Assembly (NCBI GenBank): GCA_023511455.1
Contig: JAIMBJ010000031.1
Coordinates: 1 to 41,598, forward strand
DNA length: 41,598 bases
Origin: Bacillota bacterium
GTDB lineage: Bacteria; Armatimonadota; HRBIN16
Direction: 5' to 3'
In this document: in pieces, positions 10,935 through 33,082 of the stretch
Layout of the letters: the number at the start of each line of letters is the position of its first letter
Position numbering within the stretch: position 1 is the stretch's first letter
Program-made: the position numbers and the translations under genes
The notes under the pieces: generated by a model
The model's input: the letters and a program-made list of their open reading frames with translations, nothing else
The model's database searches: none
Told to the model about the DNA's origin: nothing

Positions 10935-11237
10935 CGTCGTATCCCTTTCTGTGTAGCGTTGTCCGTTGCACACCAGGACAGGTGCGTGTTTCAGGGGGGT
11001 GACACGTAACCTGCCTGATTCCGTGCGTCGCTGTGATTCAGTTGCTTCAACCAATATAGTACACCAACTTCTCCCATTTGAAAAGGGTACAAGGTGATTT
11101 TTGCAATCATCATAGCCTAAGCAACCACTCTGTCTGGAAAAAAGCAGGCTGTCAGGCGGATGTGGGCGATAACCAGACGTCCAACAGGAGTATTTCCAAC
11201 ACTCCAAGAACTTGTAACTTCGGGAAGGGGAGTTCAG
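10935..11237. other. Divergent intergenic region, PFOR / ABC importer A
   Basis: These 303 bases carry the promoters for leftward nifJ and rightward importer A. An AT-rich patch near 11050-11095 includes TACTATATT on the minus strand as a candidate -10, but I cannot assign a confident -35. In the binding-protein frame, sequence is open from 11121 (TAA at 11118-11120), yet it encodes no hydrophobic segment. No RNA gene was recognised. Confidence 0.5.
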
Positions 11238-12665
11238 ATGCCTGTGCAGGCAGCCACCATATTTCTTGCCACCGTCAGCGGCAACTATCGCGAGGGCTTT
11301 CACCGCCTCGCACGGGAATATGAACGCGCCCACCCCGGCGTGCGGGTGAAGGTGCAGGTGATGCCCGTGAACGGCTACGAGACCTGGCTGCGCACGCAAA
11401 TCCCCGGCGCGGGCGACAAAGCCCCCGACCTCTTCAACGCCAACTTTGCCTGGGGAATGTACGAGAAGGGATTGCTGGTGAACCTGGCGCCCTACCTGCA
11501 ACGGCGCAATCCCTACACGGGCAAGGCGTGGATAGAAACTCTGAACCCGCAGTTTATCGAGAAGTTTAAAACCGCAGGCGGCGTCTCGTTCGTCACCGTC
11601 GACTTCGTGGAGATCGGTTTCTACTACAACGCAACCCTCTTCCACAAGCTGGGGTTACAGCCTCCCCGCACATGGGAGGAGATGCTGACTCTGGCGGAGC
11701 GCATCCGTGCGGCGGGCTACCTGCCGTTTGCCGTGCCGGGCAACGCCGATTCCTACTGGTCGGGCACGGTGGGCTGGATTGTGCGCTTTTTCACCGATGC
11801 CTACACGCGCCACTGGGTGCCTCTGGTGATGTCGCGCCCGGGCGACTGGGACTATGACCCCACGCGCAACGCCAGCTTCCGCCTGAACCTGAGCGACCCG
11901 TATAACGACTCGCTGGTCATTGTCAACGGCGAGCGGTTGCTGGACGCGGTGCGCAGGCGCATCATCCGTTTTGATAGCGAGCGTTTCGCCGAGCTGTACG
12001 CGCACATCAAGACGTTCTCGCGCTACTGGCAGAGGGGTTTTCACGGTGCGAACTCGGTGACCGCGTACAATCTGTTCCTGACGGGGCGCGCCGCCATCCT
12101 GCTGGAAGGCTCGTGGCTCATCGGCGATTTGATGCAGGACATGGCAGACCTGCCGCCTCGGGCGCGTTTTGACTGGGGCATCTTCGCGGTGCCTCCGCTC
12201 ACCGCCTCGCGCTTCCGGGTGCCTCCGTTCCGCGGCGTGGGCGGACCGGGGCTGGTGCTGGGCGTGGTGAAAAAGAACCCACAACAGACGCAGCGCGTGA
12301 TAGACTTCCTGATGTTCCTGACCAGTCCACAGGGCGCACAGATACTGGTGGATGAAGCGGTACGAAACCGCCGCCCTCTCAGCGGCCCGATGCTCATCCC
12401 CGGCGTCAAAATGCCGCCTGAACTGCAACGATACTATCGCCCCTTCGAGGGTAGAGGTTTCGAGAAGCTCTCTTTCCGCGGGCTGATGGACGAGCAGGAG
12501 TCCGTGTGGCAGTGGACGGTGTGGGCGCAGCGATACATGGAAGGGCGCATCTCCCTGCGGGAGTTTCTGAACCGCTATCAGCGACTGATGGAAGAGGCGG
12601 TGCCGCGCGTGATTGCCATGCAGAAACTGGACATGAATCCCCGTACGAAGGACACACCCTCATGA
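11238..12665 (+). CDS. ABC importer A: family 1 extracellular solute-binding protein, apparently without signal peptide
   Basis: 475 residues from the ATG at 11238, preceded by GGAAGGGGAG. The fold signature is that of CUT1 sugar-binding proteins: FHRLAREYERAHPGVRVKVQ, APDLFNANFAWGMYEKGLLVNLAPYL, FYYNATLFHKLGLQPPRTWEEML, LFLTGRAAILLEGSW and DFLMFLTSPQGAQIL. Such proteins bind oligosaccharides outside the membrane and deliver them to two permeases. The next gene starts within the stop codon (ATGA). The oddity is the N-terminus, MPVQAATIFLATVSGNY, which begins directly in the first beta strand with no signal peptide or lipobox. The 26-codon in-frame extension to 11160 does not supply one either. 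It may be a truncated gene, a frameshift or a misread start. Confidence 0.8.
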   Translation: MPVQAATIFLATVSGNYREGFHRLAREYERAHPGVRVKVQVMPVNGYETWLRTQIPGAGDKAPDLFNANFAWGMYEKGLLVNLAPYLQRRNPYTGKAWIETLNPQFIEKFKTAGGVSFVTVDFVEIGFYYNATLFHKLGLQPPRTWEEMLTLAERIRAAGYLPFAVPGNADSYWSGTVGWIVRFFTDAYTRHWVPLVMSRPGDWDYDPTRNASFRLNLSDPYNDSLVIVNGERLLDAVRRRIIRFDSERFAELYAHIKTFSRYWQRGFHGANSVTAYNLFLTGRAAILLEGSWLIGDLMQDMADLPPRARFDWGIFAVPPLTASRFRVPPFRGVGGPGLVLGVVKKNPQQTQRVIDFLMFLTSPQGAQILVDEAVRNRRPLSGPMLIPGVKMPPELQRYYRPFEGRGFEKLSFRGLMDEQESVWQWTVWAQRYMEGRISLREFLNRYQRLMEEAVPRVIAMQKLDMNPRTKDTPS

Positions 12666-13549
12666 GCCGACGACGCACTTCTATCGTGGTCATTGCGCTG
12701 ATGCTCGCGCCGACGCTGGTGTTGCTCGCGCTGTTTAACTACTATCCGGCGGTGCTGGGTTTGTCGCGTGCCTTCACGCGGTGGGAGACTGGTGAGGAAC
12801 CGCAGTGGATTGGTCTGGGTAACTTCGTGGCGATGTGGCATGACGAGTTCCTGCGCCTCAGCCTGCGCAACCTGCTTATCCTGCTGGTGGCGAACGTGTT
12901 GAAAACGCTCACCATGCCCCTGCTGGTGGCGGAACTGCTGATGAGCCTGCGCTCGCCGCGCTGGCAGTATATCTTGCGCACCGCCTTCATCCTGCCGATG
13001 GTGGTGCCCGGCATGGTCACGATGTTGCTGTGGAGCTTCATTTATGATGGCAGTGTCGGCCTGCTGAATCAGATACTGGAGACGTTGGGCATGGGCGGGC
13101 TGACCCGTTCGTGGCTGGGCGATTCGGGCACCGCGCTGTGGGCGATTATCGGCATTGGCTTTCCTTGGGCGGGCGGGCTGGCGCTGCTCATCTATCTCGC
13201 TGGTCTGAACGCCATCTCGGGCGACGTATGGGATTCCTGCCAGGTGGATGGGGTGATGGGCTTGCGACGGGTCTGGTATGTGGACCTGCCGCTGCTGTTG
13301 CCGCAGGTGCGTCTGCTGGTGATTCTGACCCTCATCGGCACGTTGCAGGACTTCGGCAGCATCCTGATTCTCACTGGCGGCGGTCCTGGACTGGCAACGC
13401 ACGTACCCGCACTCCATATGTACTTTCAGGCTTTTCGCTTCGGGCACATGGGCTATGCCGCCGCCATCGGACTGACGCTGTTCGTGGCGATTTTCACACT
13501 GTCCCTGCTGAATCTGCTCTGGGGCAGGAGGCTGGAGAAACAGATATGA
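12662..13549 (+). CDS. ABC importer A: sugar permease 1 (MalF/UgpA type)
   Basis: 295 residues from the ATG at 12662, overlapping the stop of the binding-protein gene (ATGA). About six membrane helices are visible, starting with VVIALMLAPTLVLLALFNYYP. The cytoplasmic coupling loop is DSCQVDGVMGLRRVWYVDLP, where the usual EAA triplet is replaced by DSC while the DG and terminal P are kept. The segment LILTGGGPG is typical of this subunit. It forms half of the membrane channel of a CUT1 importer. The frame is open further upstream but only as an overlap with the preceding gene. Confidence 0.88.
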   Translation: MSRRRTSIVVIALMLAPTLVLLALFNYYPAVLGLSRAFTRWETGEEPQWIGLGNFVAMWHDEFLRLSLRNLLILLVANVLKTLTMPLLVAELLMSLRSPRWQYILRTAFILPMVVPGMVTMLLWSFIYDGSVGLLNQILETLGMGGLTRSWLGDSGTALWAIIGIGFPWAGGLALLIYLAGLNAISGDVWDSCQVDGVMGLRRVWYVDLPLLLPQVRLLVILTLIGTLQDFGSILILTGGGPGLATHVPALHMYFQAFRFGHMGYAAAIGLTLFVAIFTLSLLNLLWGRRLEKQI

Positions 13550-14379
13550 CGAAGAGACGACGAAAGGTGCGTTTGGCGGAGGTGCTGGCGGCGGTGGTGC
13601 TGATGGTGCTGCTGGCGCTATCGCTGCTGCCGTTTGTGATGATGCTGTTGCTCTCGCTGAAGACCAACGCCGACATCTTCACGCGCTTCTGGGGGCTGCC
13701 GCAGCCTGCCCGCTGGGATTTCTACCGCGAGGCGGCGGTTGCGCTGAAAGGCTACCTGCTCAACACGCTCATCATCGTTGTGGTAGTGGTTCCAGGTGTC
13801 CTGCTGCTGAGTTCGCTATCGGGCTACGCGCTGGCACGGCTCCATTTTCGTGGACGCGATGCGGTCTTCGCGCTGATCCTTGCGCTGCTGGTGGTGCCGG
13901 GTATCCTGACCCTAATACCCACCTACGCCCTGGTGCAGGGTATGGGACTGCTCAACACGCGCTGGGCGTTAATCCTGCCCTATCTGGCGGGCGGACAGGT
14001 GCTGGGCGTGGTGCTGTGCCGAACCTTTTTCGCGAGCCTGCCCGACGAGCTGTTTGAAGCCATGCGGCTGGACGGCGCGGGCGATTTGCAGATTTACCGT
14101 TACCTTGTCCTGCCGCTCTCGCTGCCCACGCTGGCGACCATCGCCATCATGAGCACGCTGGGCATCTACAACGACTACATCTGGCCCCTCGTGACCATCA
14201 GCGATAGCAGCCTGCAGACCTTCACGGTGGGTGTCACGCGCTTCGCGGGCGAGTTCAATCTGGACTACGGACCCACACTGGCGGGCTACGTGATTGGTAG
14301 CCTGCCGCTCATCGTGCTGTTTGCGGTGGGGATGCGCGCCTTCGTGCAGGGGGTCACCAGCGGCGCCCTGAAGGCATGA
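13546..14379 (+). CDS. ABC importer A: sugar permease 2 (MalG/UgpE type)
   Basis: 277 residues. The ATG at 13546 overlaps the previous stop, with GGCAGGAGG about 15 bases upstream. The first helix is EVLAAVVLMVLLALSLLPFVMMLLLSL in two parts, and the short extracytoplasmic loop is typical of MalG-type subunits. The coupling loop EAMRLDGAGDLQIYRYLVLP matches the EAA consensus well. It pairs with the preceding permease. No ATPase gene follows, so a shared MsmX/UgpC-like ATPase elsewhere is likely. Confidence 0.9.
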   Translation: MTKRRRKVRLAEVLAAVVLMVLLALSLLPFVMMLLLSLKTNADIFTRFWGLPQPARWDFYREAAVALKGYLLNTLIIVVVVVPGVLLLSSLSGYALARLHFRGRDAVFALILALLVVPGILTLIPTYALVQGMGLLNTRWALILPYLAGGQVLGVVLCRTFFASLPDELFEAMRLDGAGDLQIYRYLVLPLSLPTLATIAIMSTLGIYNDYIWPLVTISDSSLQTFTVGVTRFAGEFNLDYGPTLAGYVIGSLPLIVLFAVGMRAFVQGVTSGALKA

Positions 14380-16490: not shown

Positions 16491-17756
16491 CTATGCAACT
16501 ACTGGCACTCGTTGCAGCATCGCCAAGGTCAAATGCGGCACGAAATCGCGATATAGCGCCCGCACATACCGCTGCACCGCTTCACCGTTCAGATACTCCG
16601 TGACGGCACGCAGGTCTATGCCATCGACCTTCGGTATCAGATGGAACTCTTCGCGCCAGGGGTAGCATCGCTCGTCCAGTGCAGCCACCACGCGCGTGCC
16701 TTTGGTATGCGCCACTACCAGATGAGGGAAGCCATAGAAGTCCCGCAAATCCATCGCGTGCTTGAGAGGCATCCAGTAACCCGAATAACAGGTGTTATAG
16801 TCGATCCAGCCTGCGTGCAGGTTCCTGCCTGTCAGGATGGGCACGTCTCCTGCAAGGGGCTGCTGACGCACCAGCGGGTGACGACGCACCTCGGGACTGC
16901 GAGCGGCAAAGCGGATGGTGAAAACTTCCCCGAGTGGTACGCCTTCCTGCTCCATCTCCAGCCATTCCGCGCTTTCAAAGCGGATGATTTCCCCCGAATA
17001 GAGGCTCTTGCGCAGGGCGAGGTGCGCCATACCATCATATAGTTCCAGACCCTGCGCCCCTTTTTGCAGCACCATCACCACCACGCTCACATTGCGTTTC
17101 GGAAACGCCTTGCCCAGATAGTAAACGCGCAGCCCGCCTTGTTCTGCAAGGAAGGCGCGAAGCCGCTTGAAATCATCCAGCACCAGCCAGCTGGCGGGAA
17201 CCACGAACACCAGTCTGCCATCGGGGGCGAGCAGCCGAGTGGCATGCTCGATGAATGCGCCATAAATGTTGAACTTGCCACGCCAGGTGGTGCATCGTTG
17301 TCGGTAGGCGCCTTTGCGTTCGCGCAGCGGGTGGATGGGGTAATGGCTCTCGTCACCGATGATGCCGTAGGGCGGGTTGCCGATGATGATATCGAAGCAA
17401 TCCGAAGGCTCCCACAACAGGAAATCCGCTTCCACAAAGGTGGCAGTGGGCAGGCGTTGCTTCGCCAGCGCGAGTCGTTCCGCGTTGATCTCCACGCCGA
17501 CCAGTTCGTGGTGTGTTCCGTAGCGGTTGGCGAACTCGGTCAGGAAAGGGGCATCGGCACAGGCAGGCTCCAGCACTCGACATCGTTCGCGCGAAGGCTG
17601 TGCGAGGTGCACCATAAACTCCACCAGCTCGCGGGGCGTATACACCACGCCCAGTGCCCTGTCCGATACGTTGCGCACGTCTGTGGAGGACGTGCCTGGT
17701 GTCTGCAGATAGAGGTTTGGTTGCTGGGAACCCCATTTTAGCATAAGCGTTAACAT
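16491..17756 (-). CDS. TaqI-type N6-adenine DNA methyltransferase (orphan)
   Basis: 421 residues from the ATG at 17756 (another ATG lies at 17744). The AdoMet-binding motif is RVLEPACADAPFLTEF, near residue 60. The catalytic motif NPPY is at residues 127-130 (GNPPYGIIGDESHYP). Motif VADFLLWEP-like sequence and WRGKFNIYGAFIEHATRLL follow. The C-terminal specificity region (FTIRFAARSPEVRRHP, ILTGRNLHAGWIDYN, VVAHTKGTRVVA, LYRDFVPHLTLAML) resembles M.TaqI closely as I recall it, so recognition of TCGA is a reasonable prediction. No endonuclease gene is adjacent on either side, so it is an orphan or a remnant of a restriction-modification system. It ends somewhat earlier than M.TaqI, just where the transposase remnant begins. 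The frame continues upstream to 18326 but that part is antisense to the deacetylase. Confidence 0.85.
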   Translation of the reverse strand: MLTLMLKWGSQQPNLYLQTPGTSSTDVRNVSDRALGVVYTPRELVEFMVHLAQPSRERCRVLEPACADAPFLTEFANRYGTHHELVGVEINAERLALAKQRLPTATFVEADFLLWEPSDCFDIIIGNPPYGIIGDESHYPIHPLRERKGAYRQRCTTWRGKFNIYGAFIEHATRLLAPDGRLVFVVPASWLVLDDFKRLRAFLAEQGGLRVYYLGKAFPKRNVSVVVMVLQKGAQGLELYDGMAHLALRKSLYSGEIIRFESAEWLEMEQEGVPLGEVFTIRFAARSPEVRRHPLVRQQPLAGDVPILTGRNLHAGWIDYNTCYSGYWMPLKHAMDLRDFYGFPHLVVAHTKGTRVVAALDERCYPWREEFHLIPKVDGIDLRAVTEYLNGEAVQRYVRALYRDFVPHLTLAMLQRVPVVA

Positions 17757-17885
17757 ACTTATTTTGCCGCATCCCACCGTTGTTCCTGCGAGCCAAGTAT
17801 GCGTGATACAGGAGGATGTCGCCGTGATCGGAGCGAATTGATTAACCGAATAATCGCGAGGAGAATCTCTTCGAGGGTGGTAACC

Positions 17886-18692
17886 GTGCTTGAGGGGACA
17901 AACGACACGTCTTGCATCCGCCTGATTGTGCGTGGGGATGACATGGGCTCGTGTCATGCGGCAAACGAGGCGTGCATCCGCTGTTATCGCGACGGCATCC
18001 TGCGCAGTGTGGAGGTGATGGTTCCCGCCCCGTGGTACCCGGAGGCGGTGCAGATGCTGAGGGAACATCCAGAGCTGGACGTGGGCGTGCATCTGACGTT
18101 GACCAGCGAGTGGGAAGCCTGCAAGTGGGGACCGGTGACGCACGCTCCCAGCCTGTGTGACCGGCGCGGGCGCTTCCTGCCAATGACCAGCCAGCGTCCC
18201 GATTTCCCGCCGGGCACGGGCTTTCTGGAGAGTGGTTATCGTCTGGACGAGGTAGAAGCCGAGCTGCGGGCGCAAATCGAAATCGCGCTGGACGACATTC
18301 CGCAGGTTTCCCATCTTTCCAGCCACATGGGCACGCCAGTGGCAGCTCCAGATCTCCGGGCGTTGACCGAGAGGCTGTCGCGAGAGTACGGGCTACCACT
18401 GGAGCACGAAGGGGTACAATTCACCGCGGGTCTCGGCGGGCAGGAAGCCAGTGCAGAACGAAAGGAAGCCATCCTGCTGGAGATTCTGGACCGTCTGACG
18501 CCGGGCACGTGGCTGCTGGTAGACCATCCGGGGCTGGATACACCGGAGATGTGTGCGCTGGGACATATCGGTTACGAGCACGTGGCGGAAGAGCGGGCGG
18601 CGGTTACAGCCGCCTTTACCAGCCCGCGAGTGGTTCAGCGCATCCGCGAACGCGGTATTCAGTTAATCAGTTATCGGCACCTTTATCGCTGA
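17886..18692 (+). CDS. ChbG/YdjC-family carbohydrate deacetylase
   Basis: 268 residues from a GTG at 17886, with GAGGGTGG upstream. The in-frame sequence from 17799 is not convincing protein and no nearer ATG exists except inside the active-site motif. The metal-binding motif is IVRGDDMGSCHAANEAC near residue 14. Further family signatures are LDVGVHLTLTSEW, SHLSSHMGT and LVDHPG near residue 215. Family members remove acetyl groups from acetylated amino sugars such as diacetylchitobiose. It is divergent from the methyltransferase gene, and only 15 bases separate it from ABC importer B, suggesting that the transporter brings in an N-acetylated or otherwise acylated saccharide (inference). Confidence 0.82.
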   Translation: MLEGTNDTSCIRLIVRGDDMGSCHAANEACIRCYRDGILRSVEVMVPAPWYPEAVQMLREHPELDVGVHLTLTSEWEACKWGPVTHAPSLCDRRGRFLPMTSQRPDFPPGTGFLESGYRLDEVEAELRAQIEIALDDIPQVSHLSSHMGTPVAAPDLRALTERLSREYGLPLEHEGVQFTAGLGGQEASAERKEAILLEILDRLTPGTWLLVDHPGLDTPEMCALGHIGYEHVAEERAAVTAAFTSPRVVQRIRERGIQLISYRHLYR

Positions 18693-18707: not shown

Positions 18708-21482
18708 ATGCGGTCGCGTGGTTTCTCGTGGAAGCTTTTGACTACCCTCTGGGTGCTAATATTGTTCATCGCAGATAGCGGGGCACAGAAACAGGAGATT
18801 GTCACCATTCGTCTGGCGAACATCCCGCTACGCAGCGCAACCGGCGTACAGAACAAGGCAGAACTGGCGGTTTTTGACGCCTTTTTCAAGAAGTATCCCC
18901 ACTACCGCTTCGAGCGGGTAACAGGGCTTGCCTTGCCCGAAGGGTTGGCGGAAGCGCAGCAGATGATGGCGTTTGCCGCTGACCGTGCGCCCGATGTCTT
19001 TGACCTGAGCATCCGACAGGTGCAGAACTACATCCGGCAGGGCTTACTGTATCCCGTCGACGACCTTATCCGCGAGCATCGCAAGCGCAACCCCGAGTGG
19101 AAGCCCCCTTCGCTGGGGTTGACCGAGCATCACTACGATGCGGCGCGCGGTCCCGATGGCAGGCTGTACGCCGTGGTGAGCGATTACTGGATACTCGGGC
19201 TGTGGTATCGGCGCGACCTGTTCGAGGAGGCAGGCATCGTGCCGCCGCGTCCCCCGAAGGACTGGCAGGAGTACTTCGAATTCGCGCAACGGCTGACCGA
19301 CCCCGAGAAGCACGTGAAAGGCGCGCGCTTCCAGACGGGGCAATACGGTACCGCGTTGCGCACGGGCTACACCGCAGGATACATCTTCACCAACTTCGTG
19401 TATCAGGCGGGCGGCGACATGACGCTGCAGGAGCGCACCTGCCCCTACGATGGCACCGTCAACGAGTTCAAGCAGGAAGACAAGCAGTGTTTGTGCCGCA
19501 AATGTGGACGCAGTCTCGCCAACCAGCCGGTGCGCTGGAAGGTGGCTTACGGGCGCGAGCCGGGGCAACGTGCCCTGCGCTTCTACAAGAAGCTGCGCTG
19601 GACGGAGTGGACACGCTGTCCCGATTGCAAAACGCCCAACAACCTGCCCGTCGCTGTCTGCCCGAAGTGCAAAGAAGAGAACCCCATTCGCTCACCAGTC
19701 GAACGCATCAGCTGTCGCGTCTGTGGCACGGTGATACCGGTGAAGCCGGAGCAAACCCGCTTCCACTGCAAGCAGTGCGGACGCGACCTGCGCGGGCAAC
19801 CCGTGTATGTGGGCGTGGCGCGCGTAGGGGGCGACCCGGTGGAGATGTTCCTGCGGGGCGAAATCGCCATGATGCTGGACCATATCAACCCGCAGGTGAT
19901 TGACCAGGTATTGACACAGGGGGGCTTGCGTCCTGACCAGATTGGGCTGGGTCCTCCGCCCAGCGCAGGAGAGGGTGGTGTACGCGCCGCACTCACAGGG
20001 GGACGCGCATGGGTCATCAGCGCGCGCGCCGCACGCGACCCGAAGGTGCTACAGGCGGCGTGGGACTATCTCGTCTTCCGCTGCAGCGAGGAGGCGCAGC
20101 GTATTATCACGGAGGTGTATGTCAAGAACGGCTACCCGCATCTCATCCGCCCGCAGATGCTGAAAAAGTTCGGCTTCACGGAGGAGTATGAGGACTACGA
20201 GCCGACCTTCCGTCGGGCGATGGAGGAGGCACCGAAATACGGGCGCATCCAGCCGCACGATCCCTACTACCAGCATGTGGAGGGACACGAACTGGCGGTG
20301 CCCATCGATACCATTCTCTACGACGGCGGACAGTATAAAGACCCTGCGAAGGTCATCCAGACCAGCATGAACGAGGTGAACGAGAAACTGTATCGGGTGG
20401 TGCCGCCAGAAGTAGAGCGACGACGCAACACGCTGGGTACTATCATCTTCTTGCTGGTGGCGCCGCTGGTGGTGTACGGTTTCGTGTGGGCGATGCGCGA
20501 GCAATCCGCAGTACATGGCAGTACGCTGACGACTCAGGCAACGCACGTGGTAGGCGCGGGAGCGAAACGCCGCTACACCACCATGCTGGCATGGTCGCTG
20601 ATGTTGCCCGCTTTGCTGACGGTGCTGTTATGGCAGTACCTGCCTCTGATTCGCGGCACGCTGATGGCGTTTTACGACTACAAGCTGTACGGCAACAGCC
20701 CGTTTGTGGGTCTGGCAAACTTCATCGAGGTGATGACCAGCCCCGACTTCTGGAACTCCGTGCGGGCGACGGTGCTATATGTGGTGTTGAATCTGGCTAT
20801 CGGCTTCGTCGCGCCGATTTTTCTGGCATTGCTGCTGCACGAGGTGCCGCGCGGCAAAATCCTGTTCCGCGTCATCTTTTACCTGCCAGCAGTCACGACA
20901 GGGCTGGTCATCATGTTCCTGTGGAAGATGTTCTACGACCCCACGCCCTACGGCTTTTTGAACCGCATCGCGATGCCCGTGCTTCATGCGCTGGGGCTGG
21001 TCTCGCCGGACGTGAAGTACATCGACTGGTTGCATACGCCCGGCCTGGCGATGCTGTGCGTGGTGATTCCCGGCGTGTGGGCGGGGGCAGGACCGGGCAG
21101 TCTCATCTACCTGGCGGCACTGAAAACCGTACCGGAGGACCTTTACGAAGCCATCGCGGTGGACGGGGGCACCTTCTGGCATAAGATGTGGTATATTATG
21201 TTCCCGTCGCTCAAGCCGCTCATCATGATCAACTTCATCGGCGCGTTCATCGGCAGCTTCCACGCCATGCAAAACGTGTTCGTGATGACGGGGGGCGGTC
21301 CCGCCAACTCCACGATGGTGCTGGGCATCCACATCTGGACGAACGCCTTCCTGTATCTGCGCTTCGGCTACGCCACCGCGATGGCGTGGGTGCTGGGATC
21401 GGTGCTGATTGGTTTCACCATCCTGCAGCTGCGTATCCTCAAGCGCGTGGAGTTCCGCGCGGCGCATGCGGTGGAGGGATGA
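18708..21482 (+). CDS. ABC importer B: solute-binding protein with zinc-ribbon-like inserts fused to sugar permease 1
   Basis: 924 residues. A signal sequence (residues 1-26, ending DSGAQ) leads into a family 1 solute-binding domain (APDVFDLSIRQVQNYIRQGLLYPVDDL; WYRRDLFEEAGIVPPRPPKDWQEY). The domain is interrupted by Cys clusters: C245, C261, C263, C266; C304/C307 with C318/C321; C336/C339 with C354/C357. The helix QRALRFYKKL near residue 290 lies between the first cluster and the others. The binding fold resumes with PVEMFLRGEIAMMLDH. One extra helix near 567-587 (TIIFLLVAPLVVYGFVWAM) is followed by a basic linker and then a complete MalF-like permease with coupling loop EAIAVDGGTFWHKMWYIMFP. 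The extra helix puts the permease N-terminus in the cytoplasm, so the topology is consistent with a working fusion. No frameshift is needed. Confidence 0.85.
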   Translation: MRSRGFSWKLLTTLWVLILFIADSGAQKQEIVTIRLANIPLRSATGVQNKAELAVFDAFFKKYPHYRFERVTGLALPEGLAEAQQMMAFAADRAPDVFDLSIRQVQNYIRQGLLYPVDDLIREHRKRNPEWKPPSLGLTEHHYDAARGPDGRLYAVVSDYWILGLWYRRDLFEEAGIVPPRPPKDWQEYFEFAQRLTDPEKHVKGARFQTGQYGTALRTGYTAGYIFTNFVYQAGGDMTLQERTCPYDGTVNEFKQEDKQCLCRKCGRSLANQPVRWKVAYGREPGQRALRFYKKLRWTEWTRCPDCKTPNNLPVAVCPKCKEENPIRSPVERISCRVCGTVIPVKPEQTRFHCKQCGRDLRGQPVYVGVARVGGDPVEMFLRGEIAMMLDHINPQVIDQVLTQGGLRPDQIGLGPPPSAGEGGVRAALTGGRAWVISARAARDPKVLQAAWDYLVFRCSEEAQRIITEVYVKNGYPHLIRPQMLKKFGFTEEYEDYEPTFRRAMEEAPKYGRIQPHDPYYQHVEGHELAVPIDTILYDGGQYKDPAKVIQTSMNEVNEKLYRVVPPEVERRRNTLGTIIFLLVAPLVVYGFVWAMREQSAVHGSTLTTQATHVVGAGAKRRYTTMLAWSLMLPALLTVLLWQYLPLIRGTLMAFYDYKLYGNSPFVGLANFIEVMTSPDFWNSVRATVLYVVLNLAIGFVAPIFLALLLHEVPRGKILFRVIFYLPAVTTGLVIMFLWKMFYDPTPYGFLNRIAMPVLHALGLVSPDVKYIDWLHTPGLAMLCVVIPGVWAGAGPGSLIYLAALKTVPEDLYEAIAVDGGTFWHKMWYIMFPSLKPLIMINFIGAFIGSFHAMQNVFVMTGGGPANSTMVLGIHIWTNAFLYLRFGYATAMAWVLGSVLIGFTILQLRILKRVEFRAAHAVEG

Positions 21483-21485
21483 GCG

Positions 21486-23318
21486 ATGGCGCTGTTCGGT
21501 CCCTGCGAGCAACGCACGCTGACCGCCCGGGTGGTATACGCCTTCATCTACACCGTGCTCATTGTGGGCGCGGTGACGATGATTTATCCCTTCTTGCTGA
21601 TGGTGGGTGCGTCCCTTACCTCCGACACCGACTTCGACGACTGGCGCGTCATCCCCGCCTACCTGCGCGACGATACCGCCCTCTTCCGCAAGTGGATGAA
21701 CGACCGCTACGGCGCGGACTTCAACATCGCCCGACGCATCCATCGGCTGGACATCACCAGCTTTCGCTTCCTGGAGAAAATCCCCGACTACCGCGTCCAC
21801 GACCCCAAAGTGGTGCAGCGCGTGGAAGACTGGTTAGAGTGCGTGAAAACTCTGCCCGACGAGTGGGTGCGCGCGCATTTCATCGACGACCGACGCACCC
21901 GCCTGACCAATCAACGCTATGCCCGCTGGCTGATGCAGAAGTTTAATCACGACATCGATGCCTTCAACCGCCAGTACGACACCAGCTATACCAGCTTCAC
22001 CGAGGTCGCGCCGTTTGAGTACGACCTGACGCACAAATCGCGCAAGGAGACCGCCCCCCTGCGCGAACTGTATCTGGAGTTTCGCCATACCCTGCCTGCG
22101 CACGACCTGATGGCGATTCTGGCGACCGATGCCTTCCTGGCGTGGGTGGAGCGGCACATCGGCGGGGTGAACGAGCTGAACGCGCTGCTGGGCACTCGCT
22201 ACCAGTCGCTCCACGAGGTGCTGTTTCCGAGTGAGCGTCCTGAAGACCCACGATGGCGCGCCCTGTGGGACCGCTATGTGCGGGAGCGGTTTCCTCTGCT
22301 CTTCGTGCGCGTGGAAGGGAACTGGGATGCGCAATGGCAGCAGTTCTTGCGCGAACGCCACCCGCAGCGTCCGTACCTTGCCCAGAGCCGATTCCCTGCC
22401 ACCCTACCGCAGGACGACCTGTACTTTGCCGACTGGGTGCTGTTCACCGATGCCGTCGTTCCCGCCGAAGCCAAGCGTCTCATCACCGTCGAGGGGTTGT
22501 GGCGCGAATGGCTGCGTCAAAAATACGGCACGTTGCAGGCGGTGAACGCCGCGCACGGCACGCGGTGGCAGAGCTGGGAGGAGATTTACCCGCCCCGCGC
22601 CGAGACAGACGTACTCACCTTCTGGCGCAACAAAGACGAGATTCGGCGCGAGTTCCTGACGCGCAACTATCGACTGGTGCTGGACTACATCCTCTTTCAC
22701 GGGCGCGCCCTGTGGAACACCTTCGTGCTGGTGCTGTTGACGGTGCTGGGGCAGCTCACCGTGCAGCCGCTGGCGGCGTACGGGCTATCGCGTTTCAACC
22801 TGCCCTATGCGCACAAGGTGCTTCTCTTCCTGCTGGCGACGATGGCGTTCCCCGCCGAAGTGGCGATGATACCTAACTTCCTGCTGATTAAAGAGCTGGG
22901 CTTGCTGAACACCTACTGGGCACTGGTGTTGCCCGGTCTGGCAAGCGGCATGGGCATCTTCTTGCTGAAAGGTTACTTCGACAGCCTGCCGCGGGAGCTT
23001 TACGAAGCGGCCATGCTGGACGGCGCGGGCGAACTGCGCATGTTCTGGAACATCACCGTGCCGCTGGCGATGCCCATCTTGGCGGTGATAGCGTTGGGTG
23101 CCTTCACGTCCGCTTATGGGGGGTTCATGTGGGCGTTCCTGGTGGTGCAGAAGCCCGAGATGTGGACGATGATGGTCTTCCTGTGGCAGCTGGGGCGCGA
23201 CAGCTACCCCTGGGTCTGGATGGCGAGTCTGGTTATTGCCGCGCTGCCCACGCTGCTGGTGTTCATCTTCGCCCAGAAGATTATCCTGCGCGGCATCATC
23301 GTGCCCACGATGAAGTAG
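21486..23318 (+). CDS. ABC importer B: sugar permease 2 with large repeat-containing ectodomain
   Basis: 610 residues, about twice the usual MalG-type length. After the first helix (residues 17-40) comes about 360 residues of soluble sequence before the second helix (near 407, TFVLVLLTVLGQLTVQPLAAYG). The rest is an ordinary MalG-type permease with coupling loop EAAMLDGAGELRMFWNITVP. The inserted ectodomain contains at least four copies of a loose motif: W, three to five residues, Y/F/I, G or N, then N, a GT- or DT-like pair, an aromatic, S, and E-V/I before P. Copies begin near residues 66, 144, 215 and 338; the last reads WLRQKYGTLQAVNAAHGTRW. The gene starts 3 bases after the fusion gene. 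No ATPase gene follows. Confidence 0.87.
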   Translation: MALFGPCEQRTLTARVVYAFIYTVLIVGAVTMIYPFLLMVGASLTSDTDFDDWRVIPAYLRDDTALFRKWMNDRYGADFNIARRIHRLDITSFRFLEKIPDYRVHDPKVVQRVEDWLECVKTLPDEWVRAHFIDDRRTRLTNQRYARWLMQKFNHDIDAFNRQYDTSYTSFTEVAPFEYDLTHKSRKETAPLRELYLEFRHTLPAHDLMAILATDAFLAWVERHIGGVNELNALLGTRYQSLHEVLFPSERPEDPRWRALWDRYVRERFPLLFVRVEGNWDAQWQQFLRERHPQRPYLAQSRFPATLPQDDLYFADWVLFTDAVVPAEAKRLITVEGLWREWLRQKYGTLQAVNAAHGTRWQSWEEIYPPRAETDVLTFWRNKDEIRREFLTRNYRLVLDYILFHGRALWNTFVLVLLTVLGQLTVQPLAAYGLSRFNLPYAHKVLLFLLATMAFPAEVAMIPNFLLIKELGLLNTYWALVLPGLASGMGIFLLKGYFDSLPRELYEAAMLDGAGELRMFWNITVPLAMPILAVIALGAFTSAYGGFMWAFLVVQKPEMWTMMVFLWQLGRDSYPWVWMASLVIAALPTLLVFIFAQKIILRGIIVPTMK

Positions 23319-23381: not shown

Positions 23382-24314
23382 ATGGGCAATCGTCAACAGG
23401 TTTTTACCGTGACAGGCAGCGTATCGCCAGAGAAACTCGGCGTCGTTCTGCCGCACGAGCATGTTCTGGTGGACTTTATCGGCGCGGACAGGGTGAGCCG
23501 GTCACGCTACGACCCTGAAGAGGTATACCGCGTCGCGCTGCCCTACCTGCAAAGGCTTCGACAGGCGGGTTGTCGCACGCTGGCAGAGTGTACACCTGCC
23601 TATCTGGGGCGTGACCCCAGGCTGCTGCAACGCCTCAGCCGTGCCAGCGGTCTGTACATCCTTACCAACACGGGCTGGTACGGCGCGGCAAATGACAAAT
23701 ATCTGCCTGCCCGCGCGTACTCCCTCACCGCCGAACAAATCGCCGCCGAATGGATTGCCGAAGCGCAAAAAGGCATTGAGGGCACAGGAATCCGCCCGGG
23801 TTTCATCAAGATTGGCGTAGACCCCGAACCGTCGGAGGTGGATATGCGCCTGCTGGAGGCGGCGGCGCTGGCCCATCGCAAAACGGGATTGACCATCGCC
23901 TCGCACACGGGACCGGGCGCGGCAGCACGCAAGCAGATCGAGCGTCTGGAGCAGGTGGGGGTGCGCCCATCCGCATTCATCTGGGTTCACGCGCAGATGG
24001 AGGGCGATAAATCCATCCATGTTTGGGCAGCAGAGCGCGGTGCGTGGGTGGAGTTCGACGGGGTGTCTCCTGAAACGGTGGAGCAGCACGTGGAGCTTAT
24101 CCTGCACCTGCGTCAGAAGGGCTTGCTGAGCCGGGTGCTGGTGTCGCACGACGCGGGCTGGTATCAGGTGGGTGAGCCGAATGGAGGCACGTTTCGCGAG
24201 TATACCACGTTGTGGACGCACCTGATACCCGCGCTGCGCAAAGCGGGCTTCTCCGATGGGGAGATAGAGCAACTGACGGCAAAGAACCCGCAGAGGGCAT
24301 TTGCGGGAGGATAG
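23382..24314 (+). CDS. Phosphotriesterase-family metal-dependent hydrolase
   Basis: 310 residues of the amidohydrolase superfamily, phosphotriesterase-like branch. All metal ligands of the binuclear site are visible: H25 and H27 (LPHEH), carbamylated-lysine candidate K143 (FIKIGV), H175 (ASHTG), H203 (WVHAQ) and D257 (VSHDAGW). Family members are lactonases, phosphotriesterases or of unknown role, so substrate cannot be stated. In this carbohydrate setting a sugar lactone or sugar phosphate ester is plausible (inference). No signal peptide is seen. A strong Shine-Dalgarno sequence (AGAAGGAGG) precedes the ATG, 63 bases after ABC importer B, so it probably belongs to the same transcript. Confidence 0.86.
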   Translation: MGNRQQVFTVTGSVSPEKLGVVLPHEHVLVDFIGADRVSRSRYDPEEVYRVALPYLQRLRQAGCRTLAECTPAYLGRDPRLLQRLSRASGLYILTNTGWYGAANDKYLPARAYSLTAEQIAAEWIAEAQKGIEGTGIRPGFIKIGVDPEPSEVDMRLLEAAALAHRKTGLTIASHTGPGAAARKQIERLEQVGVRPSAFIWVHAQMEGDKSIHVWAAERGAWVEFDGVSPETVEQHVELILHLRQKGLLSRVLVSHDAGWYQVGEPNGGTFREYTTLWTHLIPALRKAGFSDGEIEQLTAKNPQRAFAGG

Positions 24315-25636: not shown

Positions 25637-26713
25637 ATGGCAAAAGGAACCACCTACAATCACGAGCGCATCGAGTTTGTGGATGCCCGCACGGGCGTGC
25701 GCCTGATGCAGGTGACCAGCTTCCCCACCATGAGCATGGCGCTGCCCTATTTCGGCAGGAACTTCACCGGCGATTCGAAGACTTTCATCTTCGTTTCCCA
25801 GCGTGAGGCACGCCGGGATGCGCCGTCGGACCTGTTCCGCGTGGACACAGACGGCACAAACCTGACCCAGCTCACTGAGTGCGAAGGTGCGGCGGGGTTT
25901 GTCATGTCGCCGCAAGACGACTGTGTGTACTTTCACCGGCAGGCAACACTGTGGAGGGTGGATATCCACACCTTTCGCGAAGAGGAAATCGCTGTGCCGC
26001 ATGGTGTGGCGAGTATGGGAGCGGGCGCCATTTCACCGGACGGCGTTTACTACTTCGCCCAGGTAACCACTGCACACGATACCGGCGGCATCCTGCGCAT
26101 TCGCACGGACGGCTCCGAAGCCACCCTCATTGCCGAAGGAGAACGGGGAGGCTTCGCCATGCACTCCGTCAGCCCGGGCGGTGAGGGTATACTGCTCTGG
26201 CAGATGCGCGAGGGCAAAAAGACGTGGTTGCTTCTCGATCATGACGGCAACGAGCGGGGTGTATATACCAGCAGCTACGACTTCGCACATTGCACGTTCC
26301 TGGGGAGTACGGAGCGCGTACAGGGATGCGCCCTTCCGCCGGACCGTGCGCTGGTGCAAATCGGGCTGGGCGAAGAAAAGCCAACCCCCATCGCGCAGGG
26401 GGTGTATTTCTGGCACTCCGCCTCGACGCTGGACGGCGAGTGGATTGTCTCCGATACCAACTGGCCCGATGAGGGACTGCAACTGGTGCATGTGCCCACC
26501 GGGCGCTATCGCCCGCTGTGCTACCCGCGCAGCTCTCAGGGGCATCCGCAGTGGACGCATCCGCACCCGCAGTTCAGCCCCGATGGGCGCGTGGTGCTGT
26601 TCAACTCAGACCGGACGGGCATCTGCCAGATATATCTGGCGTTCATTCCTGATGACCTGCGTGAGCGCGTACGAACCGGTCAACTCAGTGTGCAGGAGAG
26701 GCGCGTGTGGTAA
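25637..26713 (+). CDS. Oligogalacturonate lyase-like (PL22-type) beta-propeller
   Basis: 358 residues, starting MAKGTTYNHERIEF like known oligogalacturonide lyases, and without a signal peptide, as expected for these cytosolic enzymes. A seven-bladed propeller is suggested by WD40-like phrases (LFRVDTDGTNLTQLT, AISPDGVYYFAQ, PQFSPDGRVVLFNSDRTG). The known metal site pattern Q-x-x-H-x-H is present as Q305, H308, H310, with H260 as a further ligand candidate and H218 (YDFAHCTF) as a catalytic-base candidate. Oligogalacturonide lyases cleave unsaturated digalacturonate from pectin, giving keto-uronates. It overlaps the start of the TctC-TctB gene by 7 bases, so the lyase and a carboxylate transporter appear co-expressed. 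Confidence 0.75.
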   Translation: MAKGTTYNHERIEFVDARTGVRLMQVTSFPTMSMALPYFGRNFTGDSKTFIFVSQREARRDAPSDLFRVDTDGTNLTQLTECEGAAGFVMSPQDDCVYFHRQATLWRVDIHTFREEEIAVPHGVASMGAGAISPDGVYYFAQVTTAHDTGGILRIRTDGSEATLIAEGERGGFAMHSVSPGGEGILLWQMREGKKTWLLLDHDGNERGVYTSSYDFAHCTFLGSTERVQGCALPPDRALVQIGLGEEKPTPIAQGVYFWHSASTLDGEWIVSDTNWPDEGLQLVHVPTGRYRPLCYPRSSQGHPQWTHPHPQFSPDGRVVLFNSDRTGICQIYLAFIPDDLRERVRTGQLSVQERRVW

Positions 26714-28011
26714 TCTGGCGTTGGGGCGTATGGGTGTGCCTGATGATAGCGGCAGCAAGCCTCGGGGGCTGCCGTCCGCGTGAGGAGTCATTCCCTTCGC
26801 GAGCCATCACGATTATCTGTCCGCCTGCTCCCGGTGGACTGTCCGATACGCTCACGCGCGCGCTGGCAGCAGCGGCGCAGGAAGAGTTCGGGGTGCCCGT
26901 AGTGGTGGAAAACAAGCCGGGTGGCGCGAACGCCGTGGGGCTGAACTATGGCGCACATGCCGAACCCGACGGCTACACAGTGACCTATGTGGTGGCGGAG
27001 CTGGCAATCCTGCCGCATCTCGGCCTCAGCTCCATCTCGCCCGATGACTTCGACCTGCTGGCGCGTACCAACTACAATCCAGCCGCAGTCACTGTGCGTG
27101 CCGATTCGGGATGGCGCAGCCTGCGAGACCTGCTCCGCGATGCCGAATCCCGTCCCGAAGCGATTCGGGCAGGCAACTCGGGAACCGGCTCCATCTGGCA
27201 TCTGGCGGCGGTGGCGCTGCAGGAGACCGGACGGGTGAAGTTCAAGCACGTTCCTTTCGGTGGGGCAGCGCCCGCCGTACAGGCGTTGCTGGGGGGACAC
27301 GTGGATGTGGTGTGCGTGAGCCCCACGGAGGTGCAGTCGCAGGTGCAGGCGGGCAAGCTGCGGATGTTAGCCCTGCTCAGCAAACAGCGCGACTCGATGT
27401 TTCCCGATGTGCCCGCCGCGCCCGAGCTGGGCTACGCCATAGATATCGGTGCGTGGGGCGGGCTGGCATTGCCGAAGGGAGTGCCGCCAGAGCGTCGGCA
27501 GCGGCTGCTGGAAGGCTTCCGGAAAGCCTTCGAGACGCCCCGGTTTCGCCAGTTGATGCAGGAGCGCGGCGTGCGGCTCGCGTGGCTGGAAGGAGAGGCG
27601 TTTCGGCAGTTCGTGCAGGAGCAGAGCGCGCTCAATCGGGCTCTGATAGCCTCGATGGGCGTCCACCTCACGCGCGGGGATGTCGGTTATCTCTATTTTC
27701 CTGCGCTGCTGGCGGTTCTGGCGGTGTTGTTAACGGGGGGACTTCTGATCAACCGACGAGTGCGCGCCCAAACCGGCTCCACCCTGTCGCTTCCCGACCT
27801 GCGCCGTCCGTTCCGGATTGGGCTGCTGGTCCTGTTATTCCTGCTGGTGTTGCCGTGGGTGGGGTTTTTGCCAGCGAGCATCCTGTTTCTGCTGGCAGGT
27901 AGCTACTCCATCGCTCGTCCACGGCTCTGGACGGCGTTGGTCTATGCAGTCGTCGCTGGTACGGGCATCTGGTGGCTGTTTGCCCGCGTGCTGGGGGTGG
28001 CACTGCCATGA
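26707..28011 (+). CDS. TctC-TctB fusion: lipoprotein substrate receptor plus small membrane subunit of a TTT transporter
   Basis: 434 residues from a GTG at 26707, with AGGAG 8 bases upstream. The lipoprotein signal ends SLGGC (lipobox, Cys22). Residues about 28-320 are a TctC/Bug-type binding domain: PSRAITIICPPAPGGLSDTL, VVVENKPGGANAVGLNYGA, AGNSGTGSIWHLAA, VQALLGGHVDVV. From about residue 328 four membrane helices follow (YLYFPALLAVLAVLLTGGLL; LLVLLFLLVLPWVGFLPASI; a TctB-like end), ending before TctA. TctB and TctC are normally separate proteins, so this single chain joins receptor to membrane subunit. The stop overlaps the TctA start (ATGA). Known substrates of the family are carboxylates, and the neighbouring uronate lyase suggests a sugar acid here (inference). 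Confidence 0.85.
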   Translation: MVIWRWGVWVCLMIAAASLGGCRPREESFPSRAITIICPPAPGGLSDTLTRALAAAAQEEFGVPVVVENKPGGANAVGLNYGAHAEPDGYTVTYVVAELAILPHLGLSSISPDDFDLLARTNYNPAAVTVRADSGWRSLRDLLRDAESRPEAIRAGNSGTGSIWHLAAVALQETGRVKFKHVPFGGAAPAVQALLGGHVDVVCVSPTEVQSQVQAGKLRMLALLSKQRDSMFPDVPAAPELGYAIDIGAWGGLALPKGVPPERRQRLLEGFRKAFETPRFRQLMQERGVRLAWLEGEAFRQFVQEQSALNRALIASMGVHLTRGDVGYLYFPALLAVLAVLLTGGLLINRRVRAQTGSTLSLPDLRRPFRIGLLVLLFLLVLPWVGFLPASILFLLAGSYSIARPRLWTALVYAVVAGTGIWWLFARVLGVALP

Positions 28012-29519
28012 CGGAAGCGCTGCGCGAGCTGATGACCGGGAATACCCTGTGGCTGATGCTGCTGGGCGTGGTGGCGGGTATCGTGATTGGTGCGCTGCCG
28101 GGGTTGACCGCAACGATGGGGGTGGCCTTGCTGGTTCCGTTCACCTTCTGGCTGCCGACTTTGCCTGCACTCATGGTGTTGCTGGGGGTGTATGTGGGGG
28201 CGATGTACGGCGGCGCGATACCGGCGGTGCTGATACGCACACCGGGTACCCCTGCTGCCGCCGCTACCAGTCTGGACGGCTATCCGATGGCGCAGGCAGG
28301 CAACGCAGGGCTGGCAATCGGCATCTCGTGCATCACGGGAGTAGTCGGCGGGGTTTTCAGCACGCTGGTGCTGATGGTTGCTGCCCCGCAGGTGGCGCGC
28401 TTCGCGCTGAAGTTCGGACCTGCGGAGTACTTTGCGCTGGCGGTGTTCGGGCTGAGCGTTATCGCCAGCCTGTCAGAGCGTTCCCTGCTGAAGGGGGCGT
28501 TGATGGGCGTCTGCGGGCTGTTGCTGGCGACGATTGGCATGGACCCCATCACCGCTGTACCCCGCTTCACCTTTGGCATGACGCCGTTGCTGGAGGGGCT
28601 TGCGCTGATTCCAGTGCTGGTGGGAGTGTTCGCACTGGGCGAAGTGCTGTATCAGAGCAGTTTACCGGAACCCGACCGCAGCCTGTTCCGCCGGATTGGG
28701 CGGGTGTTGCCGTCTCGCAGCGACTACCGGCGAATCACCGCGCCCACTCTCCTTGCCAGCGTGACGGGCACTTTCATCGGTGCGCTGCCGGGCGTGGGCG
28801 GAGACGTGGCGGCGTTTGTGGCCTATGACCAGGCGAAAAAGGTGTCGCGCCGTCCCGAGGAGTTCGGCAGGGGTTCCGTAGAGGGGCTTGCCGCCGCCGA
28901 GTGCGCGAACAACTCGGTAACCGGCGGTGCGATGATCCCGATGCTGACGCTGGGCATACCAGGCGATGCGGTAACGGCGGTGATTCTGGGTGCGATGGTC
29001 ATGCATGGGGTGCGCCCCGGACCCGACCTTTTCGAGAAGCAGTCGCACCTGCTGGCAGCCATCTTCATCGGGCTTTTGGTGGCAAACCTGCTGGTGTTGC
29101 CAATCGGTTTGGCAGGGGCGAAGCTGTTCGCGCAGACGGTTCGCGCCCCGCGGCAATACCTGTTCCCGCTCATTGTGTTGCTGTGCGTGGTGGGCAGCTA
29201 CGCCATCAACAACAGCCTGTTCGACGTCGGGGTGATGTTTGTCTTCGGTTTCATCGGATGGGCGTTGCGGCAGTGGGGCTTCCCGATTGCGCCGCTGGTG
29301 CTGGGGCTCATCCTGGGCAGGATGACCGAAGAGAACCTGCGCCGCGCGCTGATACTCTCAGGGGGAAGCTGGCGCATCTTTGTCGAACATCCCATTGCGG
29401 CAACCTTGCTGGCGCTGGCGATAGCATCCGTCGCCCTTTCGTGGTGGCAAAGCCGTCGTGCGACGAAGACAGGGGGGTCAAGCGATGAGCAACAGAACGG
29501 CGCTCGTGGTTCAACCTGA
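28008..29519 (+). CDS. tctA: Tripartite tricarboxylate transporter, large membrane subunit TctA
   Basis: 503 residues, normal TctA length, with about twelve membrane helices. Signature segments include GALPGLTATMGVALLVPFTF, YVGAMYGGAIPAVLIRTPGT near residue 60, GALPGVGGDVAAFVAYDQAKK near 260, AAECANNSVTGGAMIPMLTL near 300 and GVMFVFGFIGWALRQWGFP near 400. It forms the translocation pore, driven by ion gradients, with TctB and TctC supplied by the fused gene just upstream. The ATG at 28008 overlaps the previous stop. Its 3-prime end overlaps the next gene by 35 bases. Confidence 0.92.
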   Translation: MTEALRELMTGNTLWLMLLGVVAGIVIGALPGLTATMGVALLVPFTFWLPTLPALMVLLGVYVGAMYGGAIPAVLIRTPGTPAAAATSLDGYPMAQAGNAGLAIGISCITGVVGGVFSTLVLMVAAPQVARFALKFGPAEYFALAVFGLSVIASLSERSLLKGALMGVCGLLLATIGMDPITAVPRFTFGMTPLLEGLALIPVLVGVFALGEVLYQSSLPEPDRSLFRRIGRVLPSRSDYRRITAPTLLASVTGTFIGALPGVGGDVAAFVAYDQAKKVSRRPEEFGRGSVEGLAAAECANNSVTGGAMIPMLTLGIPGDAVTAVILGAMVMHGVRPGPDLFEKQSHLLAAIFIGLLVANLLVLPIGLAGAKLFAQTVRAPRQYLFPLIVLLCVVGSYAINNSLFDVGVMFVFGFIGWALRQWGFPIAPLVLGLILGRMTEENLRRALILSGGSWRIFVEHPIAATLLALAIASVALSWWQSRRATKTGGSSDEQQNGARGST

Positions 29520-32500: not shown

Positions 32501-32730
32501 GCGCGGTGCGCACCAACGGCAGCGTGCTGGTTCGCAGGCGCGGGCGCGGCTGGGAGCTGCTGGCTTACCCACGGGAGGGCGGCTTTGTGGTAGACCTGAA
32601 CGTCTCTCGCTTCCCGATGCCTGCACAGGTGCGGTGCGTGGGCGGGGCTGCGCCTGCGATACAGCCAGTACGTCAGGGCAGCTGGTGGCGGTTGCGCCTG
32701 AACGGGGCAAGAGCGTATCATTGGGAATAA
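29485..32730 (+). CDS. Large glycoside hydrolase-like protein (GH101/DUF5696-like)
   Basis: 1081 residues from the ATG at 29485, with AGGGGGG upstream and overlapping the tctA 3-prime end. No signal peptide. Residues about 20-180 look like a jelly-roll carbohydrate-binding domain (KPFRIDLSPYLGQTVTLRFE). Residues about 240-400 form a second beta domain. From about 430 a TIM-barrel region includes ARGFEQLAAHGITRCVALIHVW, GTNACFLDVHSAVPPWFHVD with D580 as nucleophile candidate, and GPVFGEGNNHWYWSG with E628 as acid/base candidate. Beta domains follow, including a segment with DGDYQWTIGLY. The general order resembles endo-alpha-N-acetylgalactosaminidase-like or DUF5696 proteins, but I do not recognise a specific family. 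Confidence 0.55.
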   Translation: MSNRTALVVQPDAPILNLDEIGLYTVGYAYRGGQEQLFPPGWSSYFEEKTGVACQPAGLVNGKQAFLLHCPWRGGTGVAFQTFTIRLPRARNAFLRGFTAMRPGTVERSDGVTFRIFVNGKKVLEEHRTDAQWKPFRIDLSPYLGQTVTLRFETDPGPKDDPSWDFSLWAERELVLEGYQPVQKARPAPPPLKLQTLTSVPNGTIAPRSAFAHRTSLQVRDDTAIFRYQGDDGVLEYRWRKPRPDDPNPFGEWTLRAQMKGDSPVEVPLATTATLEFVMDGLPIGAQWERKGDTIVCARRYREGRAGVTLRITAKLFHKSLVLELEADRPGIRLLDAGGWGPVMRRRQVVTPYYSGQVFYLPAENLFVNAILDWTHSHATAHDGLRAQYNALTDGSRNALRERVVFTAAWHMAEVLPNIPNPPSPFLKQVGDRIVLDIWGGQFVDIARGFEQLAAHGITRCVALIHVWQRSGYDNALPMHFPANAELGGDEGMKVLVQTGVNLGYYVALHENYVDYYPNYDHFDEDDIALDSEGKRQLAWFNPGTKIQSFAVKPNAILRLAATQSPEIHRRYGTNACFLDVHSAVPPWFHVDMRAEEDGAGMFQRVWDVHRALWQYARKTHGGPVFGEGNNHWYWSGCLDGVEAQFGTGWGWGQGLHAPLAVEFDLLKIHPLQCNHGMGYYERWWSDAKWGSVPPMVVLDQYRMQEVAYGHAGFLGSAVWNLIPYAWLEHHLLTPVMARYATARPISIEYHVGGKWVDSTAAAKAGNWQRVRVRYDSGLTVVANSAPEPLRVGAITLPRFGWLATGAGVTAYTALRQGVVVDYAETAESLLVNARNAAHWNLTGLKRIRPEVAQFTQAGERTFRVTYRWQVNDTLDRDYFCFVHFSQLPPEPWDEGIKFQQDHALPKPTSQWRRGEEVIDGEYTVTIPENIPDGDYQWTIGLYTPGGGRVNLEGEVDRHGRNLLGVLQVRDNGRTIRFVPEQSTGEQRLALYRSHLNEAGKAVDFGAVRTNGSVLVRRRGRGWELLAYPREGGFVVDLNVSRFPMPAQVRCVGGAAPAIQPVRQGSWWRLRLNGARAYHWE

Positions 32731-32746
32731 TGAGGAAGGGGCAATC

Positions 32747-33055
32747 GTGTCTATGGACAGGTTCCGGTATCTTCGTCAGCACGTCGTGCCGCTACTTAAG
32801 CCTTACGCCCGACGAATCGCCGTTTTTGGGTCGTTTGCGCGGGGGGACGACACGGAAAGTAGCGACGTCGATATCCGCGTGGAGTTGAAGCCGTTAGAAC
32901 AACGTCCCCCTTTGGGGCTTCGCTGGTTCGCTTTGGAGGAAGAGCTTAGCCAGCGAATTGGTAGAAGAGTGGAGTTGGTTAGTATGAAAGCCCTTAGCCC
33001 CCACATTCGCCCCTACGTGAAGGAGGACGAGGTAGTGCTTTATGAAGAGGGATGA
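32747..33055 (+). CDS. MNT-type minimal nucleotidyltransferase, without HEPN partner
   Basis: 102 residues from a GTG at 32747 (6 bases after GGAAGGGG; an ATG at 32753 is an alternative). The polymerase-beta-like signature GSFARGDDTESSDVDI is complete, with the two Asp metal ligands, and RVELVSMKAL fits the third strand. MNT proteins usually pair with an adjacent HEPN RNase as MntA/HepT toxin-antitoxin modules, where MNT modifies HEPN by AMPylation. Here both neighbours are large glycosidase-like genes and no HEPN gene is seen, so it is solitary or its partner lies elsewhere. It lies tightly between the two genes and is probably co-transcribed. Confidence 0.83.
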   Translation: MSMDRFRYLRQHVVPLLKPYARRIAVFGSFARGDDTESSDVDIRVELKPLEQRPPLGLRWFALEEELSQRIGRRVELVSMKALSPHIRPYVKEDEVVLYEEG

Positions 33056-33082
33056 GCGGTCACACGCGCAGAGGAGGTGCGC

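Follow-up and report, generated by a model that had tools for sequence, protein, structure and literature searches.

Can a sugar receptor be built into the permease that it serves, and if so, what kind of importer results? In most binding-protein importers, free receptors are present in excess. The window, i.e., the whole stretch of 41,598 nucleotides analyzed here, stems from a hot-spring Armatimonadota bacterium and raises this question with one unbroken open reading frame of 924 residues at 18708-21482 (+). The features of this frame are as follows.

18708..21482 (+), fused receptor-permease: sugar-binding protein (SBP), extra helix and MalF-like permease (open frame; Pfam/NCBIfam; AlphaFold2 pLDDT 85)
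18795..20387 (+), extracytoplasmic sugar-binding domain with CUT1 SBP fold, residues ~30-560 (PF01547, 1e-16; Foldseek)
19425..19832 (+), zinc-ribbon-like insertions in the SBP, residues 240-375 (invariant cysteines; short paired strands in the model)
20406..20549 (+), extra transmembrane helix and start of the basic linker, residues 567-614, hydrophobic core 578-596 (hydropathy; AlphaFold2; kept in 44 aligned fusions)
20580..21446 (+), MalF/UgpA-like permease core, residues 625-913 (PF00528; UgpA/GlcT/MalF models; SugA 7cad, 2e-19)
21144..21203 (+), EAA loop of the MalF-like half, from residue 813, the expected ATPase contact (motif search, YEAIAVDGG)

Domain organization of the fused gene

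A preliminary description had read this frame as signal peptide, family 1 binding domain, extra helix, basic linker and MalF-like permease with an EAA loop, and the open frame together with the Pfam, NCBIfam and PDB searches agrees with that order. Pfam detected SBP_bac_1 at residues 57-241 (1e-16), SBP_bac_8 at 55-228 and BPD_transp_1 at 699-914 (3e-11), and with PF01547 at 1e-16 and PF13416 at 1.1e-16 the receptor is of the family 1 (SBP_bac_1/8) type. According to NCBIfam and PDB sequence searches, the permease half, from residues ~611-633 to 913, is UgpA/SugA/MalF-like, and its first helix was placed at 630-648 by hydropathy. An AlphaFold2 model built on an alignment of 44 homologues reached a pLDDT of 85 and a pTM of 0.80. 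The best PDB matches of this model in Foldseek were cycloalternan-, acarbose-, maltose- and trehalose-binding proteins (E 9e-17).

The locus carries two features of a CUT1 importer, namely a family 1 receptor and MalF- and MalG-type permeases with EAA loops (residues 813 and 506, respectively). Assignment to the amino acid (PAO) or glycine betaine (OTCN) families was not borne out for the fusion permease, whose best models are UgpA, GlcT and MalF. The permease scores fall short of the NCBIfam equivalog cut-offs, so they define the class only and not the substrate. Within the fusion, mean pairwise identity is 32% for the SBP and 52% for the permease, the faster divergence of the SBP being as expected if substrates differ.

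The fusion is conserved and widespread

Since genes for SBP, MalF and MalG are normally adjacent, a missed stop could produce just such a frame, and an assembly or sequencing error joining two neighboring genes had to be considered. Seven of nine congeners, however, carry the full-length open frame at 87-92% identity. In another (G185) the fusion is split across two contig ends at 95-97% identity, and only a weaker match was obtained in G182, a genome that is 80% complete. The separation into two genes in close relatives, which the preliminary description had named as grounds for abandoning its reading, did not occur. Across junction residues 560-625, six congeners showed 0.49 changes per codon at the third position versus 0.20 and 0.13 at the first and second, a 2.5-4-fold excess as expected of translated sequence. 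The extra helix, moreover, would be expected in neither of the two separate proteins. Fusions of the same order were also found in the isolate Oligosphaera ethanolica DSM 24202 (L082) and, as the preliminary description had suggested looking for, in closed or single-contig genomes (L058, i.e., Uphvl-Ar2, CP021424; G154; G119). With the frame conserved and the codon-position bias in place, we rule out an assembly artefact for practical purposes.

A protein search of 291 Armatimonadota genomes returned more than 100 further genomes with long fused frames. Scanning of named genomes yielded 80 loci, most of them in metagenome-assembled genomes. Almost all of these loci are fused open reading frames, and their labels include Armatimonadota, Lentisphaerota, Verrucomicrobiota, Kiritimatiellota, Planctomycetota, Cloacimonadota, Hydrogenedentota and Omnitrophota, among others. 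The initial supposition that such fusions are uncommon among CUT1 importers is not supported in that form, since the arrangement occurs very frequently both in Armatimonadota and in a number of other phyla. Two fusions resembling those of Armatimonadota lie on a contig labeled as a Methanoregulaceae archaeon (L120), which is probably misbinned; one of the two is almost identical to that of the genome G131.

An additional helix precedes the permease

The preliminary description had placed an additional membrane helix at about residues 567-587 and assigned it the task of carrying the chain from outside to inside. The helix itself is well supported; its extent was drawn too short and covers the first half only. 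Its hydrophobic core lies at 578-596 by hydropathy, and AlphaFold2 draws 567-614 as a single continuous helix that runs into the basic linker REQSAVHGSTLTTQATHVVGAGAKRRYTTMLAW. In the 44 aligned fusions, the linker beyond the helix comprises 11-38 residues with a mean net charge of +4. The N-terminal side is also slightly positive with a mean of +1.6, so the positive-inside signal is moderate. The helix was seen in every fusion checked of the three permease classes described below. Considering its occurrence in all three sampled clades, the charge of the linker and its modeling as one helix, the element is best read as the out-to-in crossing that an N-in permease needs, in agreement with the original proposal. 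That independent fusions gained the same topological element supports this topology-correcting role and amounts to a natural experiment in membrane topology.

Fusions probably arose at least twice

Phylogenetic trees of the permeases, computed with a small sample of unfused permeases, separate three fused classes: A with the fusion of the window, B with a paralogue from the same genome and others, and C. Unfused permeases fall between these classes. In the AU test, a single clade of A, B and C, and with it a single origin of all fusions, was rejected (p-AU 0.0026), whereas B and C as one clade were compatible with the data (p 0.225) and may share one origin. The trees therefore support independent fusion in at least two clades. 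Less probably, losses through gene splitting could explain the scattered classes.

The class B paralogue is a second SBP-MalF fusion on another contig of the same genome (G000:C24; L009 3501-6131, -) and lacks an adjoining MalG. An orphan MalG of 446 residues with extra N-terminal helices (G000:C5; L011 4012-5349) could be its partner. The MalG partners of other class B fusions (L155 2276-4939, L156 712-2520, L158 353-2254) carry ~5-6 added N-terminal membrane helices, an elaboration unlike the repeat loop described below.

Cysteine-rich insertions in the receptor

The receptor contains a feature missed by the preliminary description. Twelve cysteines, mostly arranged in CxxC knuckles, are located in the SBP insertions (245, 261, 263, 266, 304, 307, 318, 321, 336, 339, 354 and 357). 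All twelve are invariant in seven aligned congeners and in a Hydrogenedentota homologue of 69% identity, and the pattern suggests that the insertions bind zinc. Fewer cysteines are present at this site in L048, L049, L054, L029 and L031, and a cysteine-free stretch takes the place of the insert in L039 and L041.

A repeat domain in the MalG-like partner

Four bases past the end of the fusion begins a MalG-like gene, whose large insert had likewise been overlooked.

21486..23318 (+), MalG-like partner permease, 610 residues (PF00528; UgpE/MalG models)
21612..22709 (+), extracytoplasmic insert between TM1 and TM2 of MalG, about four tandem repeats and a leading half unit (alignment of 47 homologues; PF02449 positions 151-194; AlphaFold2)
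22710..23303 (+), MalG core helices 2-6 with EAA loop from residue 506 (hydropathy; UgpE/MalG models; motif search)

The insert of ~365 residues separates TM1 (24-42) from TM2 (from ~409). Adjacent MalG partners at 50 loci carry inserts of ~360 to 600 residues, with one outlier (L120). Within each unit, a short strand and two helices are followed by a motif like 'LN..YGT.Y.S..E' and then by a third helix. In the AlphaFold2 model (pLDDT 91, pTM 0.89) the units are all-helical apart from strands of three residues. The number of units was taken from the secondary structure of this model; an iterated HMM of the unit drifted to longer pieces including TM1, and its counts were set aside.

The profile PF02449 was matched by 25 of 47 inserts at positions 151-194 of 376 only. 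Single copies of this GH42-like segment were also detected in several glycosidase-like open reading frames of the same genome. Foldseek returned no whole-domain PDB match to the insert below E 0.7; the matches obtained concern single units and lie in GH42, GH14, GH50 and GH167 enzymes. Single repeats superpose on the GH42 structures 1kwg, 4uoq and 4uni with an rmsd of 3.5-5 over ~62-73 columns. One unit of the insert thus resembles a helical segment of GH42 beta-galactosidases and GH14 beta-amylases, whereas the TIM barrel and catalytic region of these enzymes are missing and the unit is tandemly repeated within a permease loop. A GH42 enzyme fused into MalG can be ruled out, as only one helical segment matches and no catalytic barrel is present. 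Given the confident model and the glycosidase matches of single units only, the insert is a candidate for a new repeat fold that derives from part of a glycosidase.

Co-occurrence of both genes was assessed in the 291 Armatimonadota genomes at cut-offs of E<=1e-60 for the fusion and E<=1e-15 for the insert, which were chosen after viewing the tables. Both were present in 135 genomes and neither in 139, leaving 17 discordant genomes (fusion only, 3; insert only, 14). As the genomes are related to one another, a Fisher p value computed from these counts takes no account of shared descent and is not given as a probability. When eight of the 'insert only' genomes were re-searched with profiles, four revealed a fusion or contig-edge fragments thereof (G006, G256, G221, G273). 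At most of the loci examined outside Fimbriimonadia, the repeat-loop MalG lies directly downstream of the fusion. Two single-contig Fimbriimonadaceae genomes contain both genes, but at a distance of hundreds of kb (225 kb in G154); the insert of this family is shorter with ~290 residues. As fusion and repeat-loop MalG are inherited together across many phyla, they point to a real and widespread importer type.

Relation to known transporters

A MalE-MalF fusion, said to originate from Bdellovibrio bacteriovorus, likewise combines a CUT1 SBP and a MalF-type subunit in one chain. According to the description in a citing review, on which our comparison is based, this maltose/maltodextrin importer is of the CUT1 type and transport-competent (Licht et al. 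2019, Res Microbiol 170:1-12; in PMC7756565). The earlier statement that receptor-permease fusions are not commonly known for CUT1 importers was therefore only partly right, and by the review's account, joining receptor and permease in one chain has a precedent among CUT1 importers. In that account the MalE-MalF protein is presented as a single system, whereas the fusion of the window belongs to a multi-phylum family. Substrate-binding domains are also covalently joined to the transmembrane subunit in GlnPQ (PMC8025302) and in OpuA (PMC11065425). Those permeases belong to the amino acid and glycine betaine families, respectively, and GlnP carries tandem substrate-binding domains, in contrast to the UgpA/MalF-like fusion described here.

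The E. coli systems MalFGK2-MalE and UgpAEC-UgpB share the subunit types, the EAA loops and the SBP fold with the system of the window, and a MalK-type ATPase is present in the genome; the receptor of the E. coli systems, however, is a separate protein. In the E. coli maltose permease, the large outside loop is the P2 loop of MalF, whereas in the system of the window it lies between TM1 and TM2 of MalG.

Searches of the open-access literature brought up no earlier description of this fusion family from Armatimonadota or Planctomycetes. In the mostly open-access papers searched, nothing was found either on a family spanning several phyla, on the recurrence of the helix, on a MalG with a repeat loop or on a receptor with zinc ribbons. 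Fusion and repeat-loop MalG together apparently represent a so far undescribed importer type, of which the repeat-loop MalG is the more novel half, as its repeat domain seems to reuse a piece of a glycosidase in a new fold.

Proposed mechanism and alternative explanations

We consider it likely that the two genes encode a two-protein CUT1-type importer, consisting of a tethered receptor-permease and a MalG with a repeat domain, with the ATPase encoded elsewhere. Sequence or models show the order of the domains, the helix, the partner gene with its repeat domain, the co-occurrence and the phylogeny, and from these we infer topology, ATPase pairing, sugar transport and a docking role. The signal peptide would send the SBP domain outside, the extra helix would return the chain to the inside, and the permease half would then insert N-in as normal. 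A receptor tethered for good would fix the ratio at one receptor per transporter and can reasonably be expected to act at high local concentration, as proposed initially. The repeat domain of MalG would most likely serve as a scaffold beside or over the pore, and that the tethered receptor docks there is our guess. Energy would be provided by a MalK-type ATPase encoded elsewhere and common to other importers of the genome; one match to OB_MalK was found at one profile cut-off, outside the window (G000:C22), and may pair with the fusion and MalG. More tentatively, and with slightly less than even confidence, we propose that tandem duplication of a glycosidase helical segment in the loop of MalG gave rise to the new repeat fold, that this fold co-evolved with the tethered receptor and docks or caps it, that zinc ribbons stabilize the receptor in this hot-spring genus, and that both proteins form a widespread two-protein class.

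Instead of docking the receptor, the repeat domain might act as a carbohydrate-binding module holding poly- or oligosaccharide chains near it. This rather unlikely explanation would fit the resemblance of each repeat to a GH42/GH14 segment, seen in the PF02449 matches of roughly half the inserts, in the one-copy glycosidase-like frames of the genome and in the superposition on GH42 structures; the restriction of the match to 44 profile positions without a barrel speaks against it. The low conservation of the insert fits docking or carbohydrate binding alike. The extra helix could also be a mere anchor, with the fusion as a precursor from which the receptor is later cut free, given that unfused CUT1 receptors are free or lipid-anchored. 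In the model, however, no obvious cleavage motif is seen where the helix continues into the basic linker, the same arrangement has persisted over a wide range with at least two origins, and the fused MalE-MalF protein is described as transport-competent (PMC7756565, as cited there), which renders a precursor very improbable. Slightly less probable again is an SBP part that no longer binds sugar but regulates the permease or acts as its sensor. A tether would permit signaling, and zinc-ribbon insertions are unusual in a transport receptor, but the SBP fold is intact with Foldseek matches to oligosaccharide receptors, and EAA loops are kept in both permease halves.

A tethered importer as favored here would offer, as a natural 1:1 arrangement in many phyla, a clean way to ask what a free receptor is for. 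Receptors hidden in permease genes may also be miscounted when genomes of these phyla are annotated. In the Fimbriimonas genome paper, 28 substrate-binding proteins stand against 68 permeases (PMC4072686), a gap that such fusions may explain.

Genomic neighborhood

Two genes flank the pair on the same strand.

17799..18692 (+), YdjC-like deacetylase gene (PF04794, 4e-48), ending 15 bases upstream of the fusion
23382..24314 (+), phosphotriesterase-family gene (PF02126), found downstream also in the HRbin16 congener

The YdjC-like gene is a possible operon partner of the fusion. The neighborhood, with GH38, BNR and oligogalacturonate lyase-like genes, suggests glycan use but points to no particular substrate. 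A survey of neighboring genes for 100 proteins gave no consistent substrate hint, with recA and GFO/IDH/MocA being most frequent.

Two more CUT1 systems with separate receptor and permeases are located at 11160-14379 and 36867-40807, which places fused and unfused systems within 30 kb of each other. The window harbors a second fusion of a receptor with a membrane subunit at 26707-28011 (+), where TctC (50-318) is fused to TctB (324-434) and followed by TctA, forming a tripartite tricarboxylate transporter. Beside carbohydrate genes, two open reading frames of more than 1000 residues, one with DUF5696 and one without a Pfam match, lie at 29458-36220. A TaqI/Eco57I-type DNA methylase frame at 16491-18326 (-) overlaps the YdjC-like gene by ~500 bp; its Pfam match begins at residue 223, and the true start probably lies further in.
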